Assembly (NCBI GenBank): GCA_033344875.1
Contig: JAWPMO010000001.1
Location: 682,001-746,000, forward strand
Length of the DNA stretch: 64,000 nt
Direction of reading: 5' to 3'
From: Ilumatobacteraceae bacterium
GTDB lineage: Bacteria; Actinomycetota; Acidimicrobiia; Acidimicrobiales; Ilumatobacteraceae
The notes beneath the pieces are model-generated. The model ran no database searches, was not told where the DNA came from, and saw only the letters and a list, made by a program, of their open reading frames with translations. A program made the position numbers and the translations under genes. Numbering within the stretch: position 1 is the first letter of the stretch; every line of letters starts with the position of its first letter. Below, one piece after another: positions 4,401 to 60,600 of the stretch.

Positions 4401-4431
4401 ATCACGAGTTGTGCCTGGCACAACTCGTGAT
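4401..4431. repeat. Perfect 31-bp palindrome (15-bp arms, 1-nt centre)
   Basis: ATCACGAGTTGTGCC, a single T, then GGCACAACTCGTGAT: a perfect palindrome starting directly after the TGA of the sulfur-carrier gene and ending 14 nt before the ATG of the thiolase gene. The same 15-bp ends border the 148-bp element at 56573-56720. It could fold as an RNA hairpin, but no T-run follows, so a classical terminator is not clear. It may be an internally deleted copy of the longer repeat. Confidence 0.9.
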
Positions 4432-54905: not shown

Positions 54906-55340
54906 ATGCCCACGATCTTTTCCCGCATCATCGCCGGCGACATCCCCGGGACGTTCGTCTGGCGCGACGAACGCTGCGTGGTGTTCATGTCGATCAATCC
55001 GATGGCGTACGGCCATGCGCTCGTCGTGCCGATCGAGGAGGTCGACCACTGGGTCGACGCCTCCCCCGAGCTCGCCACGCACCTGTTCGAGGTGACGCGC
55101 CTCATCGCCCGGGCCCAGCACACGGCGTTCCGGCCGGAGCGGGTGGGCGTGATCATCGCCGGCTACGAGGTGCCGCACACGCACATCCACGTCATCCCGA
55201 CCAACGACATGGCCGAACTGTCGTTCGCGAACGCAGCACCATCGGTCGAGCGGACCGACCTGGAGGCATCCGCCGACGCCATCCGCACGGCGCTCGCTGC
55301 GGCCGGACACGGCGAGCACGTCGCCGGGCTGCCAAGCTGA
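54906..55340 (+). CDS. HIT-family nucleotide hydrolase
   Basis: A 144-aa histidine-triad protein, cytoplasmic. The triad HTHIH in PHTHIHVIP (about residues 92-100) is complete and the opening TIFSRIIAGDIPG is typical. Such enzymes hydrolyse adenosine phosphoramidates or related dinucleotides. Start ATG 54906 has TACATT 7 nt upstream. The next gene starts 5 nt after its stop. Confidence 0.93.
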   Translation: MPTIFSRIIAGDIPGTFVWRDERCVVFMSINPMAYGHALVVPIEEVDHWVDASPELATHLFEVTRLIARAQHTAFRPERVGVIIAGYEVPHTHIHVIPTNDMAELSFANAAPSVERTDLEASADAIRTALAAAGHGEHVAGLPS

Positions 55341-55345
55341 CCCGC

Positions 55346-56572
55346 ATGCCGCTCCAGCTGTCCGATCCGACCGAGGTCGGGTTCGATCCCGACCGGCTCG
55401 CCAACATCGATCGCCATTTCCAGCGCTACGTCGACGACGGCAGATTGACCGGGTGGCAGGTGGCCGTCATGCGCCACGGCAGGCTCGTCCACCACTCCAC
55501 CGCAGGTCAACGGCATCGTGAGGACGGTGTCGATTGGGCGGACGACACGATCGTCCGGCTGTACTCGATGACGAAGCCGATCACCTCGGTGGCGGCGATG
55601 ATGCTCTACGAAGAGGGCGCGTTCGAGCTCAAGGACCCGGTGTCGAAGTTCATCCCGTCGTACGCCGACGCCGGGGTCTACCGGGGCGGCTCGGCGTTCA
55701 AGCCCCTCACCGACCCGCTGACCGAACCCGTGCGGATCTGGCATCTGCTCACCCACACCTCCGGGCTGACCTACGGGTTCCACCACCAGCAGGTCACCGA
55801 CGCCCTGTACCGAGCCGCCGGTTTCGAGCGGGGACAACCATCGGGGATGGATCTCGAGAGCGCGTGCGATGCGTGGGCCGCGCTCCCCCTCGCCTTCCAA
55901 CCGGGTTCCGAGTGGAACTACGGCGTCTCGACCGATGTGCTCGGTCGCGTCGTCGAGGTGGTCTCGGGGCAGTCGCTCGCCGAATTCTTCGACGAGCGGA
56001 TCTTCCGGCCCCTCGCGATGAATGAAACCGGGTTCCACGTCCCCGAGGAGCGAGCCGACCGCGTGGCCCGCCTCTACGGACCGAACCCGGCCACCGGCGA
56101 GGCCACGCCCAGTCCGCTCGACTTCGTCGTCACGAAGCCGCCGACGATGCTCTCCGGTGGCGGCGGACTCTGGGGTACCGCCGCCGACTACCTGCGCTTC
56201 ACCCAGATGTTGCTCGGACGCGGGGAGCTCGACGGGAACCGGCTGCTCGGCTCCCGCACCGTCGAGTACATGACGCAGAATCACCTGCCCGGCGGCGCCG
56301 ATCTCGAGGCGTTCGGTCGCCCGCTGTTCGCCGAGACGTCGTTCGACGGCGTCGGGTTCGGACTCGGCTTCTCGGTGCAGATGGACGCCGCGGCCAACAA
56401 GGTGTTGAGTTCGCCGGGCGAATACGCGTGGGGCGGCGCAGCGAGCACGGCGTTCTGGTGCGACCCGAACGAGGACCTCGCCGTGGTGTTCCTGACGCAG
56501 CTGCTCCCCTCGAGCACCCATCCGATCCGGCCACAGCTGAAACAGCTGGTCTACCAGGCACTCGTCGACTGA
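55346..56572 (+). CDS. Serine hydrolase of the beta-lactamase class C/esterase fold
   Basis: A 408-aa protein with the serine-enzyme motif SMTK (residues about 73-76) and a Tyr motif in WNYGVSTD near residue 191, the layout of EstB-type esterases and class C-like hydrolases. No signal peptide is evident, so an intracellular esterase is more likely than an antibiotic-degrading enzyme. It starts 5 nt behind the HIT gene (ATG 55346). The stop is followed directly by a palindrome-ended repeat. Confidence 0.88.
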   Translation: MPLQLSDPTEVGFDPDRLANIDRHFQRYVDDGRLTGWQVAVMRHGRLVHHSTAGQRHREDGVDWADDTIVRLYSMTKPITSVAAMMLYEEGAFELKDPVSKFIPSYADAGVYRGGSAFKPLTDPLTEPVRIWHLLTHTSGLTYGFHHQQVTDALYRAAGFERGQPSGMDLESACDAWAALPLAFQPGSEWNYGVSTDVLGRVVEVVSGQSLAEFFDERIFRPLAMNETGFHVPEERADRVARLYGPNPATGEATPSPLDFVVTKPPTMLSGGGGLWGTAADYLRFTQMLLGRGELDGNRLLGSRTVEYMTQNHLPGGADLEAFGRPLFAETSFDGVGFGLGFSVQMDAAANKVLSSPGEYAWGGAASTAFWCDPNEDLAVVFLTQLLPSSTHPIRPQLKQLVYQALVD

Positions 56573-56720
56573 ATCACGAGTTGTGCCAGGAGGTCGAGCG
56601 GATAGGTGAGGCTCTGCCGAACCTGGCCGCTCGACACTCCCAATGGATACGGGGAGGAATCAGCGGAATGAACAGGAGCGGAGCGACCTATCCGCTGATC
56701 CTCCAGGCACAACTCGTGAT
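56573..56720. repeat. 148-bp palindrome-ended repeat element
   Basis: Ends are ATCACGAGTTGTGCC and GGCACAACTCGTGAT, the same 15-bp arms as the palindrome at 4401-4431. The inverted terminal repeat extends to 35 bp with about four mismatches (left GGAGGTCGAGCGGATAGGT, right arm reverse complement GGAGGATCAGCGGATAGGT), and an inner GGAGGAATCAGCGGA forms a nested hairpin with the right arm. It starts directly after the hydrolase stop and ends 2 bp before the SRAP gene stop on the other strand. No coding capacity is seen; a MITE-like or REP-like element is likely. Confidence 0.82.
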
Positions 56721-56722
56721 GG

Positions 56723-57433
56723 TCAGGTGGGTTCGATGAGGTGTCCGCCCTTGTTGCGGACGTTGTTCACGTCGGTCGACACCTCGTGCATCGTCAGCAG
56801 TTCGTCGGGTGCCGGCACGAGGAGTTTCTGGAGCATCTCGATGTTCTGGTTGGCGGGGTCGAGCCAGATCGGCCACATCGCTTTCGGCAGGATCACCGGC
56901 ATCCGGTCGTGCACCGGGCTCATCGTGTCGTTGGCCGCCGTGGTCACCACCGTCGCGCTGTGCAGCCACGGTGCGTCGGGGCCCTCCGACTTGTCGCGCC
57001 ACGCGGACCACAGGCCAGCGACCGCCAAGGGCTCGTCGTCGGTTCGGTGGATGAAGTGCGGTCGCTTGGCGAGCTTGCCCGCCTTGGTGACCGGGCCCCC
57101 CTCGACGCCGGCGGCCCACTCGTAGAAGCCGTCCATCGGGATGATGCAGCGATGCTTCTTGAACACGCCCTTGAACGCGTTCTTCTCGGCGAGTGTCTCG
57201 GCGCGGGCGTTGATCATCCGCTGCCCGATCTTGCGTTCTTTCGCCCACACGGGGATCAGCCCCCAGTGGAACACCTGCAGCTCGGGCGGGCCGTCGGCCT
57301 GACCGACGACCCCGTAGATGTCGTTGGTGGGCGCGACGTTGAAGTTCTCGCCGAGCGTCTCGACGGTCGACTCGGCGCCGAAGTACTTCGCGATCCGCTC
57401 AGGTGCCGACGACGACACGAAGCGGCCGCACAT
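56723..57433 (-). CDS. SOS-response-associated peptidase (SRAP/HMCES, YedK)
   Basis: A 236-aa SRAP protein that forms a thiazolidine cross-link with abasic sites in single-stranded DNA and protects them. Catalytic Cys2 follows directly after the initiator Met (MCGRF); the NVAPTN segment, RMINARAET (Arg/Asn/Glu site), GFYEW and VHDRMPVIL blocks complete the family. The start at 57433 gives the required Met-Cys. It lies 9 bp downstream of the yegP-type gene on the same strand; a repeat element follows its stop. Confidence 0.95.
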   Translation of the reverse strand: MCGRFVSSSAPERIAKYFGAESTVETLGENFNVAPTNDIYGVVGQADGPPELQVFHWGLIPVWAKERKIGQRMINARAETLAEKNAFKGVFKKHRCIIPMDGFYEWAAGVEGGPVTKAGKLAKRPHFIHRTDDEPLAVAGLWSAWRDKSEGPDAPWLHSATVVTTAANDTMSPVHDRMPVILPKAMWPIWLDPANQNIEMLQKLLVPAPDELLTMHEVSTDVNNVRNKGGHLIEPT

Positions 57434-57442
57434 CGGCCGACC

Positions 57443-57625
57443 TCAGGCCGTCTGGTCGTCGAGCTTGGCGTCGGGCGCGTTCTTGCGGATCGATTCGATG
57501 CCGTTGACACACGCCTTCTTGGTCGTGTATCCCTCGCCGGTGGCGATGGTCTGGCCGTTGCCGGCCTTCAGGCGGAAGCGGTACTCGCCCTTCTTGTCCT
57601 GGTAGACCTCGAATTTTCCTGCCAT
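57443..57625 (-). CDS. DUF1508/YegP-like small protein
   Basis: A 60-aa YegP-like protein with one DUF1508 unit: FEVYQDKKGEYRFRLKAGNGQTIATGEGY, then a helix with ACVNGIESIRKNAPDA. E. coli YegP has two such units. Function is unclear. ATG 57625 precedes the SRAP gene by 9 bp, and the two are probably co-transcribed; a stress-related role is possible from this link alone. Confidence 0.88.
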   Translation of the reverse strand: MAGKFEVYQDKKGEYRFRLKAGNGQTIATGEGYTTKKACVNGIESIRKNAPDAKLDDQTA

Positions 57626-57662
57626 GTGTCGGTACCTCGCGAGTGGCGGTCGGGAACGTCGG

Positions 57663-60600
57663 TCAGCTTAGTCGACCGCGCTCGATACCCGGATCGACCG
57701 GTGCCTCGCCGCTGGGCACGTTCCGACCGACGATCGCCGGCACTGCGATGACGTCGAGTTGCTCGAGCAGCTGTGTCGCCTCGGCGCGCCGGCCGTCCCG
57801 AGGGTCGCCGGTCGGGCGATCGAGTTCGTCCCACACCATCAGGGTGATGGCCGTGGTGTACCGGTCGTTCGCCTCGCGTGCCGAGTCGAGCGCTCGCCGC
57901 AGCGTGTCGGCCGCCGTGACAGCGTCGCCCGACCTGACCTGGGCCAAGCCGAGCATGGGCAGGAGCTGGACGAGGAGCTGATCGTCACCCGCCTCGGAGG
58001 TCAGGCGCCGTTCGATCGCCTCGGCGAGCGACAGCGCCGACGCCGTGTGCCCCCGCAGGAGTTGACACTCGACCCGACGCACCGCCATCTCGTTCACCAG
58101 GGCCGAGGCGCCGAGCTCCGACAACGCGACGGTGGCCTCGTCGAGGAGGGTGATGCCCCGCTCAGGGTCGCCGGAGCGCGCCATCGTCATCGCGAGGTTC
58201 GACCCGGCGTACGGCACGCCGACGGTGAACCCGGCCTGCTGCCACGCCGCCGACGCGTGTTCGAAGAGCTCGACGGCCTCGTCGTGACGGCCCTGGAGGC
58301 TGAGGATCTCTCCGATGTTGTTCGCGACCATCGCCTCACCGACCACGTCACCTGCCTGGCGACGAAGCGTCCTGCTGCGCTCGTACTCCGCGATCGCCGA
58401 CCGCCACTGGCCGTCGAAGTGATGGCGGACCCCGCGGTTGTTCAGGACGTTCGCCTCGCCGACGAGGTCGCCGGACCCGGCGAACATCTCCAAGGCGAGA
58501 TCGGAATACCGGGCGGCATCGGGGCGGCCGAGGGTCCGGTACGCGACCTCGACCATGTTGAACGCCCGTGCCATGGCCAGCTGGTCGCCCGTCCGTTCGG
58601 CGCTCTCCGCAGCGAGTTCGGCCTGCGCGGCGCACAGACGCAGGCGGCCCTGCCGATGGAGTGCTCCTGCTCGCAACCGTGCCGTCTCCGCGGTCTCCAG
58701 GTCCCGAGCCCGGGCATTGTCGATCTGTTCGACAGCGCGCACCGCACGGGTCAGCCAGGACAGCGACTGGCTGAGGCGTCCCTCGTTGAGTCGTACCTCG
58801 CCGATCTTGCGGAGGAGCCGCGCCTGGTGCTCGGAGCCGGCGTCGCGGGCTCGGCTCTCCTGGTAGGCGGCGAACGCCTCCGGGTAGTGACCCATCAGTT
58901 CGTGGACGTCGCCGAGCGACTCGGCGACACGCGCCCGCGCCGCTTCGTCGGCGGCGGTCACGTGCTGTGCGTTCCGAAGCGCTCGTTCGAACAGTGTCAC
59001 GGCCTCGGCGTTGGCGAATGTCCGCCGTGCCGATTCACCGCCGGCCACCGAGTAGATCCATGCACGCTCGTGGTCGCGGGCCCGGTCGAAGTGGTCGGAG
59101 AGCAGCGGCATCACGGTCGTGAGGTTGCTGCCGCGCCGGCGCTCGAGCGTCGTCCCGATCGCCAGGTGCATCTGGCGTCGTCGTCGATAGGCGAGGCCCT
59201 CGTACGCCACGTCCCGGTAGATCGACTGACGGAACCGGTAGATCCCGGGACCTTCGGGAACGAGGAACGACCCGAGCGATGCCCACCGATCGGGCGACTC
59301 GAGTTCTGGCTGGTCGAACGCCGTGGCGAGCAGTGGTGCGTCGACGGTGTTGCCTCCCACCGAGACGTCGCGGAGGAGCACCCGATCTCGGGGCGGGAGC
59401 AGGTCGATCCTCGTCGTGATCAAGGACTCGATCGACTCGGGCAGTGCGTCGCCACTGCCCTCCTCGAGTGCTGCAACGAGTTCGAGGACGAACAGCGGGT
59501 TGCCGGCGGCGCGTTCGACGAGCGCCTCGACGTCGGATGCCGCGGTCGTCGTGTCGCCGACGCCGACCTCGACGCCGGCGGCGGCGAGCAGGTCGACGAC
59601 GTCTTGGACGCCAAGGCTCGTGAGTGACACGGTTTCGAGCGGCACCTCGGACCCGAGCGCGAGTCCTTCCGACCCCGTTCGGCGCGTCATGACGATCATC
59701 GTCGAACGTTGTGCGACGCGACGCGCCAACTCGCACAGCACGTCGACGGAACCGGGATCGAAGAGGTGGACGTCCTCGGCCAGCACGGCCGTCGGTTCCC
59801 GGAGCGCACGGTCGATGGCGTCGGCCGTGACGGACAGCATCCGGTCGCGCCGGAACTCGTCGGCCAGCCGTTCGACCGCCGAGGTCATGCCCACCTCGGC
59901 CCCCACCGGCAGCGCCAGCAGCGGGAGCCACCTCATCAGTTCGGGTGCGTTCGTCGCCGACCATGCGATCAGTTGTTCACCGAGGTCAGCCGGATCCTGC
60001 CCGTGGAGTTGGAGGACGTCGCGCAGCAGGCCCCTGATCATGAAGAAGGGAGTGTTCTTCGCATACTGACCCCCGCGCATCCGATGGACACGGAGTCCGG
60101 GGTGGTGCAACAGCGTCTCGTCGGCGAGGCGAGACTTGCCGATGCCCGGCTCCCCCACGATGTCGACCACCGAGCCTCGACCGGCGAGGGCAGCGTCGGC
60201 GAGCAGGTCCAGACGCGTTCGCTCGTCGGCTCGCCCCACGAAGCCCACGTGGCTCACGTGGTCGGCGTCGTCGACCGACAGTGCATCGCCCAACACCGCT
60301 GCACGGATCGGCTCGGACTTCCCCTTGACGTGGAACGGCGGCAGTTCCGCGATGTCGAACTTGGTGTCGGCCCGGCCCAGCACCTGCCTCGACACGATGA
60401 TCTGTCCCGGCTCGGCGCGCTGCATCAGGCGCGCCGCGAGGTTGACGGCGTCGCCCATCACGGTCAAGGTGCGTCGGGTCGGTCCTCCGAGGTCACCGAC
60501 GAAGACATGCCCGCGGTTGACGCCCGCCCGGATCGGCAGCGTGGTCTCGAGCGAGAACAGTTCCCGCAGCCCCAGGAGCATGTGGTCCTCGTCGGCATCG

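Follow-up and report, generated by a model that had tools for sequence, protein, structure and literature searches.

The gap between a beta-lactamase-family hydrolase gene and the SRAP gene facing it raises the question of what the 148-bp non-coding element filling it is (positions 56573-56720 of the window, by which we mean the whole 64,000-nucleotide stretch analysed) and how it came to lie there. A preliminary description had treated it as one element, either of a MITE/REP-like family or serving as a bidirectional terminator. Our analysis confirmed the feature and showed that it consists of two layers, namely a dispersed palindrome and a separate insert that splits this palindrome at its centre. 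It is very probable that these layers are nested non-autonomous mobile repeats, with a REP-like 31-bp palindrome outside and a 112-bp IS5-family MITE at its midpoint. The family proposed earlier would then be right in kind, with two elements in place of a single one.

Layout of the element and its junction in relatives

The terminal inverted repeats pair at 31 of 35 bases (88.6%, four mismatches), as the preliminary description had stated, and the nested hairpins that it mentioned were found at 56593-56635 (GTCGAGCGG/CCGCTCGAC, 56593-56601 and 56627-56635) and 56659-56699 (ATCAGCGGA/TCCGCTGAT, 56659-56667 and 56691-56699). The borders are as sharp as claimed: the hydrolase stop codon TGA (56570-56572) directly abuts the element, and the SRAP stop codon (56723-56725) lies two bases past the other end. 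The predicted fold reached -89.6 kcal/mol against a shuffle mean of -49.1 (sd 3.7, n=200; z = -11), with none of the shuffles as good. The order along 56573-56720 is a 13-bp arm, CCAGG, a 112-bp insert, CCAGG and a 13-bp arm, and without the insert and one CCAGG the sequence reads ATCACGAGTTGTGCCAGGCACAACTCGTGAT, which is perfectly palindromic over its 31 bp around a single central base. A free 31-bp palindrome with these ends lies at 4401-4431, which bears out the earlier remark on shared palindromic ends. The supposed single 148-bp unit keeps its ends as described, and these ends prove to be a separate repeat, the remainder being an insert at its centre. The features are as follows, the insert's terminal repeats, the inner hairpins, the right CCAGG copy and the right arm being given as read from the sequence.

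4401-4431, no strand: free 31-bp palindrome without insert, matching the element's ends
55346-56572, + strand: flanking gene, beta-lactamase-family hydrolase (PF00144, domain match)
56573-56585, no strand: palindrome left arm (ATCACGAGTTGTG), same letters as free palindromes
56586-56590, no strand: left CCAGG, one of the pair of direct repeats bounding the insert; the two sides share their central letter in 30 of 37 insertions
56591-56702, + strand: 112-bp insert without a proposed coding sequence, taken for an IS5-family MITE; 13 near-full copies, ends matching the insertion sequence of genome G038
56591-56607, + strand: insert left terminal inverted repeat (AGGTCGAGCGGATAGGT)
56593-56635, + strand: left inner hairpin (GTCGAGCGG ... 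CCGCTCGAC)
56659-56699, + strand: right inner hairpin (ATCAGCGGA ... TCCGCTGAT)
56686-56702, + strand: insert right terminal inverted repeat (ACCTATCCGCTGATCCT)
56703-56707, no strand: right CCAGG copy
56708-56720, no strand: palindrome right arm (CACAACTCGTGAT)
56723-57433, - strand: flanking convergent gene, SRAP (PF02586, domain match)

Rfam gave no match at E <= 1 for window positions 55000-58500, and the 148 bp had no match at E 1e-5 in the phage and plasmid collections. The genome-wide search with the full element that had been proposed returned 13 near-full copies including that of the window (140 or more of the 148 bases at 95-100% identity), besides one clear partial copy.

The stop-to-stop gap between the hydrolase and SRAP genes, 150 bp in this genome, measures 9 bp in relative G006, 12 in G003 (whose hydrolase gene is recognisable by its end alone), 23 in G002, 85 in G001 and 189 in G004. 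The gap of G001 carries another inverted repeat, GGGTCGGGTG/CACCCGACCC, and that of G004 consists of CCGATTAAATCGG palindromes in an array; the two genes of G007 stand about 3.5 kb apart, with extra DNA between them (locus L202, 4173-7730). Both layers are absent from the junction in all six of these genomes; no hydrolase gene beside SRAP was found in G037, G038 and G039, so that the junction is uninformative there. The preliminary description had been staked on the element not being single-copy and fixed at one place in all relatives; it is multi-copy, and absent at this junction in the relatives examined.

The comparison for empty sites that it proposed found the window junction empty of both layers, and an insert-free palindrome at another site, 4019188. 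At that site, the window's own genome carries palindrome and insert starting 2 bp past the stop codon of the upstream gene, and the orthologue of that gene in G007 (84% identical) stops at TAG, with GTCGCGAGTTGTGTCAGACACAACTCGCGAC beginning 2 bp further on and lacking the insert. Among the four insert-bearing sites readable in G007, this was the one insert-free palindrome; two others had no palindrome and one had a larger palindromic structure. At the insert-bearing site 1576840, none of the five relatives with a readable junction carries the element.

The 112-bp insert and its IS5-family relatives

The insert forms a unit separate from the palindrome. It is 112 bp long, non-coding and bounded by 17-bp imperfect terminal repeats, and it splits the palindrome at the centre so that CCWGG remains on both sides. 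Among the 13 copies the mean divergence is 2.4% in the insert and 9.0% in the palindrome arms. A second insert type of 87-89 bp occupies the same palindrome in two full copies and one deleted copy, and occurs once in another palindrome, ACGGTTGGTG-CCTGG-CACCGACCGT. A third insert type was seen in G007, where two copies were found (L048, L051), within GTGCC-core palindromes.

The letter at the centre of CCNGG was the same on both sides in 30 of 37 insertions, complementary in 5 and otherwise in 2; these insertions, related by descent, comprise 17 from the window's genome, 12 of the 14 matches in G003 (those with loci) and all 8 copies found in G038. Mere lengthening of a palindrome would have yielded complementary letters. 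The direct duplication can be read as 5 or 3 bp, and alignment of the ends on AGCGGATAGG suggests a true target duplication of 3 bp, CNG, inside CCNGG. Read in the orientation of the insert, 8 of 13 copies have A/A as their repeat letters, a pattern that would likewise arise if the 148 bp moved as one.

The ends of the insert led to a full insertion sequence. In G038, a genome of another family of the same order, a sequence matching the right end of the element closes a 943-bp insertion sequence, whose protein (284 aa as searched) matches DUF4096 (PF13340) and DDE_Tnp_1 (PF01609) and scores 130 bits against NCBIfam transpos_IS5_3 (NF033580; cut-off 110). The eight copies found in G038 all occupy the CCNGG centre of a palindrome; these palindromes are in part imperfect and show at least three arm types. 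Over 21 positions, the ends of the insert agree with those of this insertion sequence at 16 (left) and 17 (right); since the crossed comparisons give 15 (left-right) and 13, polarity is clear for the right end and weak for the left. G001 has two IS5-family copies (transposase 55% identical), which have TTA on either side and occupy the middle of another palindrome, GGCGAT-TTA-ATCG. This palindrome is of the CGATTTAATCG/CGATTAAATCG-core type, a family that was also seen to fill intergenic gaps in G004 (L140), G005 (L169) and G001 (L108 and L119); its members are arrayed in G004 and in G005, where a direct duplication of about 18 bp flanks the array.

The insert is best read as a MITE of an IS5-family insertion sequence, with the midpoints of palindromes as its target: it is short, repeated and non-coding, it shares its ends with an insertion sequence, and it stands between direct duplications. 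The preliminary description had expected a helper outside the window. Such a helper exists in kind, as the IS5-family transposase with matching ends in relatives, and none was found in this genome: the IS5-type protein had no match there at E <= 1e-5 (11 of 61 genomes were positive), and PF13340 none (the control search was positive in 5 of 14 named genomes).

The outer palindrome and tyrosine transposases in relatives

The consensus of the outer palindrome is ATCACGAGTTGTG-CCWGG-CACAACTCGTGAT, 31 bp. In the 4.97-Mb genome, a single contig, it occurs free at 22 sites (at most 3 mismatches), and a reversed control pattern had no match; together with the 13 near-full copies, these numbers indicate that the repeat nature of the element is not due to chance. 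According to gene calls by a custom codon-usage script, the free palindromes lie in tandem gaps at 17 of 22 sites, often just 5' of the next start, in convergent gaps at 2 and in divergent gaps at 3. Convergent gaps are commoner for insert-bearing copies (7 of 13 vs 2 of 22; Fisher p 0.006). A facing stop codon lies within 6 bp at 24 of 31 sites, against 12.7 expected for random placement within the same gaps, and 0 of 20,000 random trials reached this number; the count leaves aside four free palindromes, three of them divergent and one overlapping a predicted gene. The last one, at 4206613-4206643 (L069), may reflect a wrong gene call or an intragenic insertion.

Palindromes tend to correct themselves. 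At every one of the 15 arm positions, 16-22 of the 22 palindromes have a Watson-Crick pair, and position 4 is A-T in 10, G-C in 6 and neither in 6; such change on both sides may be due to selection or to self-correction of the palindrome. The unpaired GTAG or CGTC tag was absent from the ends of the free palindromes, which begin with ATCRCGAG and are paired to their ends, and the outer palindrome is not a tagged REP of the GTAG/CGTC superfamily. Close pairs of sites were also observed, 5 within 3 kb vs 1.15 expected (44 sites, p 0.007), in the genome regions 2447540-2448128, 2026840-2028370, 1576840-1580900 and 2806051-2807484; none of the genes read between them looked transposase-like by eye.

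Outside this genome, TTGTGCCNGGCACAA was present in 5 of 298 genomes of an order sample that excluded G003, with 18 copies in the window's own genome and one in each of the other four; G003 itself has 19. The palindrome pattern, scanned in named genomes that may omit the window's own, was found in four contigs of one Acidimicrobiales MAG (JAAYBP01) and in one Leucobacter contig. At the free palindrome site 1578215, G001 has a 1-bp gap and G007 a palindrome with a switched core, and at site 1580870, G003 has another palindrome with a GTGCCAGGCAC core.

The link of this palindrome with tyrosine transposases comes from relatives. A Y1_Tnp search gave 11 matches in 8 of 21 genomes, 10 of them with loci (two incomplete in sequence). 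Four of the ten loci, namely two of G003 and single ones of G009 and G007, have the core GTG[C/T]CNG[A/G]CAC on both sides of the gene with nearly equal spacing, at 991-1028 and 1900-1919 of the locus. From sampled densities, a two-sided core is expected by chance at about 0.2-0.6% per locus. Among the remaining six, the G001, G002 and G005 loci have palindromes of other kinds. The four proteins scanned matched PF01797 above its cut-off and the REP-associated tyrosine transposase model NF047646 at 45-55 bits, below its cut-off of 80. Since the 31-bp palindrome has other arms than the palindromes beside the transposase genes, the link rests on core and layout, by which the outer palindromes resemble the repeats of REP-associated-type tyrosine transposases. 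Very long GGTCAGACC-core palindromes adjoin tyrosine transposase genes in G002 (L098, 1003-1082) and G005 (L104, 2281-2346), and one such gene in G001 (L103) lies between CGCCTCGCCC/GGGCGAGGCG palindromes at 1362-1394 and 2283-2307.

The window's own genome had no Y1_Tnp match. Tyrosine transposases of six relatives and the IS protein, searched by tblastn against 325 kb of own loci (overlapping, window included), gave only matches of E 0.24-0.65, and the genome held no pair of exact GTGCCWGGCAC cores about 900 bp apart, the spacing seen around the relatives' transposases.

Proposed origin of the nested repeats and their meaning

Under the nested reading, the outer layer would be a dispersed REP-like palindrome, usually near a stop codon, with the core that surrounds the tyrosine transposase genes of relatives; it may once have been moved by a tyrosine transposase, which, like the helper of the MITE, would have been present earlier in this lineage. 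An IS5-type transposase, not found in the genome today, would have bound the terminal repeats of the MITE and inserted it after a staggered cut of the palindrome around its dyad, duplicating CCWGG or its central CWG. Most of the MITE can pair with itself, so that a palindrome interrupted by it can still fold into a single, longer hairpin, and this may make the insertion site nearly harmless. Several observations count against this reading, namely that only one of the four readable G007 junctions is insert-free, that the repeat letters are A/A in most copies, that the left end is weakly matched in polarity, that the arms beside Y1 genes differ and that the genome has no Y1 transposase of its own.

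These A/A letters, and the presence of the arms in 13 of 13 near-full copies, would also be explained if the whole 148 bp were the mobile unit, with terminal repeats of about 35 bp, and the free palindromes were remnants that lost the interior by recombination between CCWGG copies. We consider this very unlikely, since one palindrome hosts different inserts and one insert type occupies two palindromes, the related insertion sequence of G038 occupies palindromes of several arm types, and the arms are more diverged than the insert; moreover, the insert-free palindrome at the orthologous G007 junction would be a scar only if an insert had been there earlier. It is quite unlikely, too, that only the insert is mobile and the outer palindrome is a binding site of a host protein, homogenised within the genome by selection. 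The core does vary between genomes as a set, as that explanation would have it (16 GTGTCNGACAC and 1 GTGCCNGGCAC in G007, 0 and 9 in G009), but its position on both sides of tyrosine transposase genes at similar spacing (twice in G003, in G009 and in G007) is a transposon-like layout, and the presence of the palindrome differs among relatives at the junctions read.

A bidirectional terminator kept for its function, with the copies arising by convergent selection or gene conversion, is extremely improbable as the main identity of the element, even though the preliminary description had offered it. The very stable hairpin, the excess of sites near a facing stop codon (24 of 31 at 6 bp or less vs 12.7 expected) and the 7 of 13 insert-bearing copies between convergent genes speak for it. 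The window copy has no T run directly after it; its hairpin and position at gene ends fit an intrinsic terminator, and it may have a side role of that kind. Against a terminator as its origin stand the free palindromes, 17 of 22 in tandem gaps and often just 5' of the next start, with 2 of 22 in convergent gaps, the 95-100% identity over 148 bp at 13 sites and the empty window junction in relatives.

The nested mobile repeats that we favour are a variant of a known theme, given that insertion sequences targeting REPs are already known. Tobes and Pareja (2006, PMC1525189) name ISPsy8, ISPa11, ISPpu9, ISPpu10, ISRm22 and ISRm19 as using REPs as targets and report a preference for REPs in ISNm1106 of the IS5 family. 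As in our case, DDE-type elements there are directed specifically at dispersed extragenic palindromes, and the IS5 family is represented; the case here differs in that a MITE was inserted, at the exact dyad, in another bacterial group and in a genome where no helper was found. As bacterial MITEs are characterised in two reports (PMC3733652, PMC2817692), they are 70-300 bp, non-coding, multi-copy and strongly folded, with terminal inverted repeats and ends matching a full insertion sequence, as here, whereas the target here is the midpoint of another dispersed repeat. The outer palindrome resembles the REPs/RAYTs of Nunvar (2010, PMC2817692) and the TIRtrons/TIRYTs of Di Nocera (2013, PMC3733652) in being a short multi-copy extragenic palindrome 3' of genes with related palindromes flanking Y1 transposase genes, here in relatives; some TIRtrons have self-complementary terminal repeats. 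Unlike them, it has no unpaired GTAG/CGTC tag, the transposase genes are surrounded by other arms, and no Y1 transposase was found in its own genome. Among the open-licence papers searched, none was found that treats RAYT, REPIN and Actinobacteria together.

The core of the palindrome differs among relatives, being GTGCC/GGCAC or GTGTC/GACAC. In 322 kb of G007 we counted 16 GTGTCNGACAC and 1 GTGCCNGGCAC, and in 266 kb of G009 0 and 9 (Fisher p 3e-6), with some contigs chosen for earlier matches and copies beside transposase genes included. The commonest palindrome of G007 is that of the window's genome with the core altered in both halves. In G003, G007 and G009, the palindromes beside transposase genes share their core with the dispersed ones (in G003 judged by TTGTGCCNGGCACAA, GTGTC being uncounted). 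The free palindromes of G007 have the GTGTC core, and two that bear a related insert retain GTGCC on both sides (L051) or on the left only (L048); as these two were found with a query that itself had GTGCC ends, insert-bearing palindromes with a switched core could be missed. Five own sites read in G007 showed a simple switched-core palindrome at two, a larger switched structure at one and none at two, and of the two simple ones compared, that at 4019188 has kept its arms and that at 1578215 has not. From the G007 and G009 counts, site 4019188 and the two GTGCC insert-bearing palindromes, one could propose that a tyrosine transposase rewrites dispersed palindromes genome by genome, keeping the arms and flipping both core halves, while copies plugged by a MITE stay frozen in the old core; we regard this as rather unlikely.

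The present locus is a clean two-layer example of a mobile repeat harbouring in another mobile repeat, a case that rests on insertion at the exact midpoint, a full insertion-sequence relative at 8 sites and an insert-free orthologous palindrome. It also points to pairs of palindromes and tyrosine transposases in this bacterial group. The genome-specific core makes the likeness of palindromes within a genome, which is a standing question, directly testable. If the rewriting of cores were true, it would amount to transposase-driven concerted evolution of fixed sites, in which nested MITEs would serve as time stamps.
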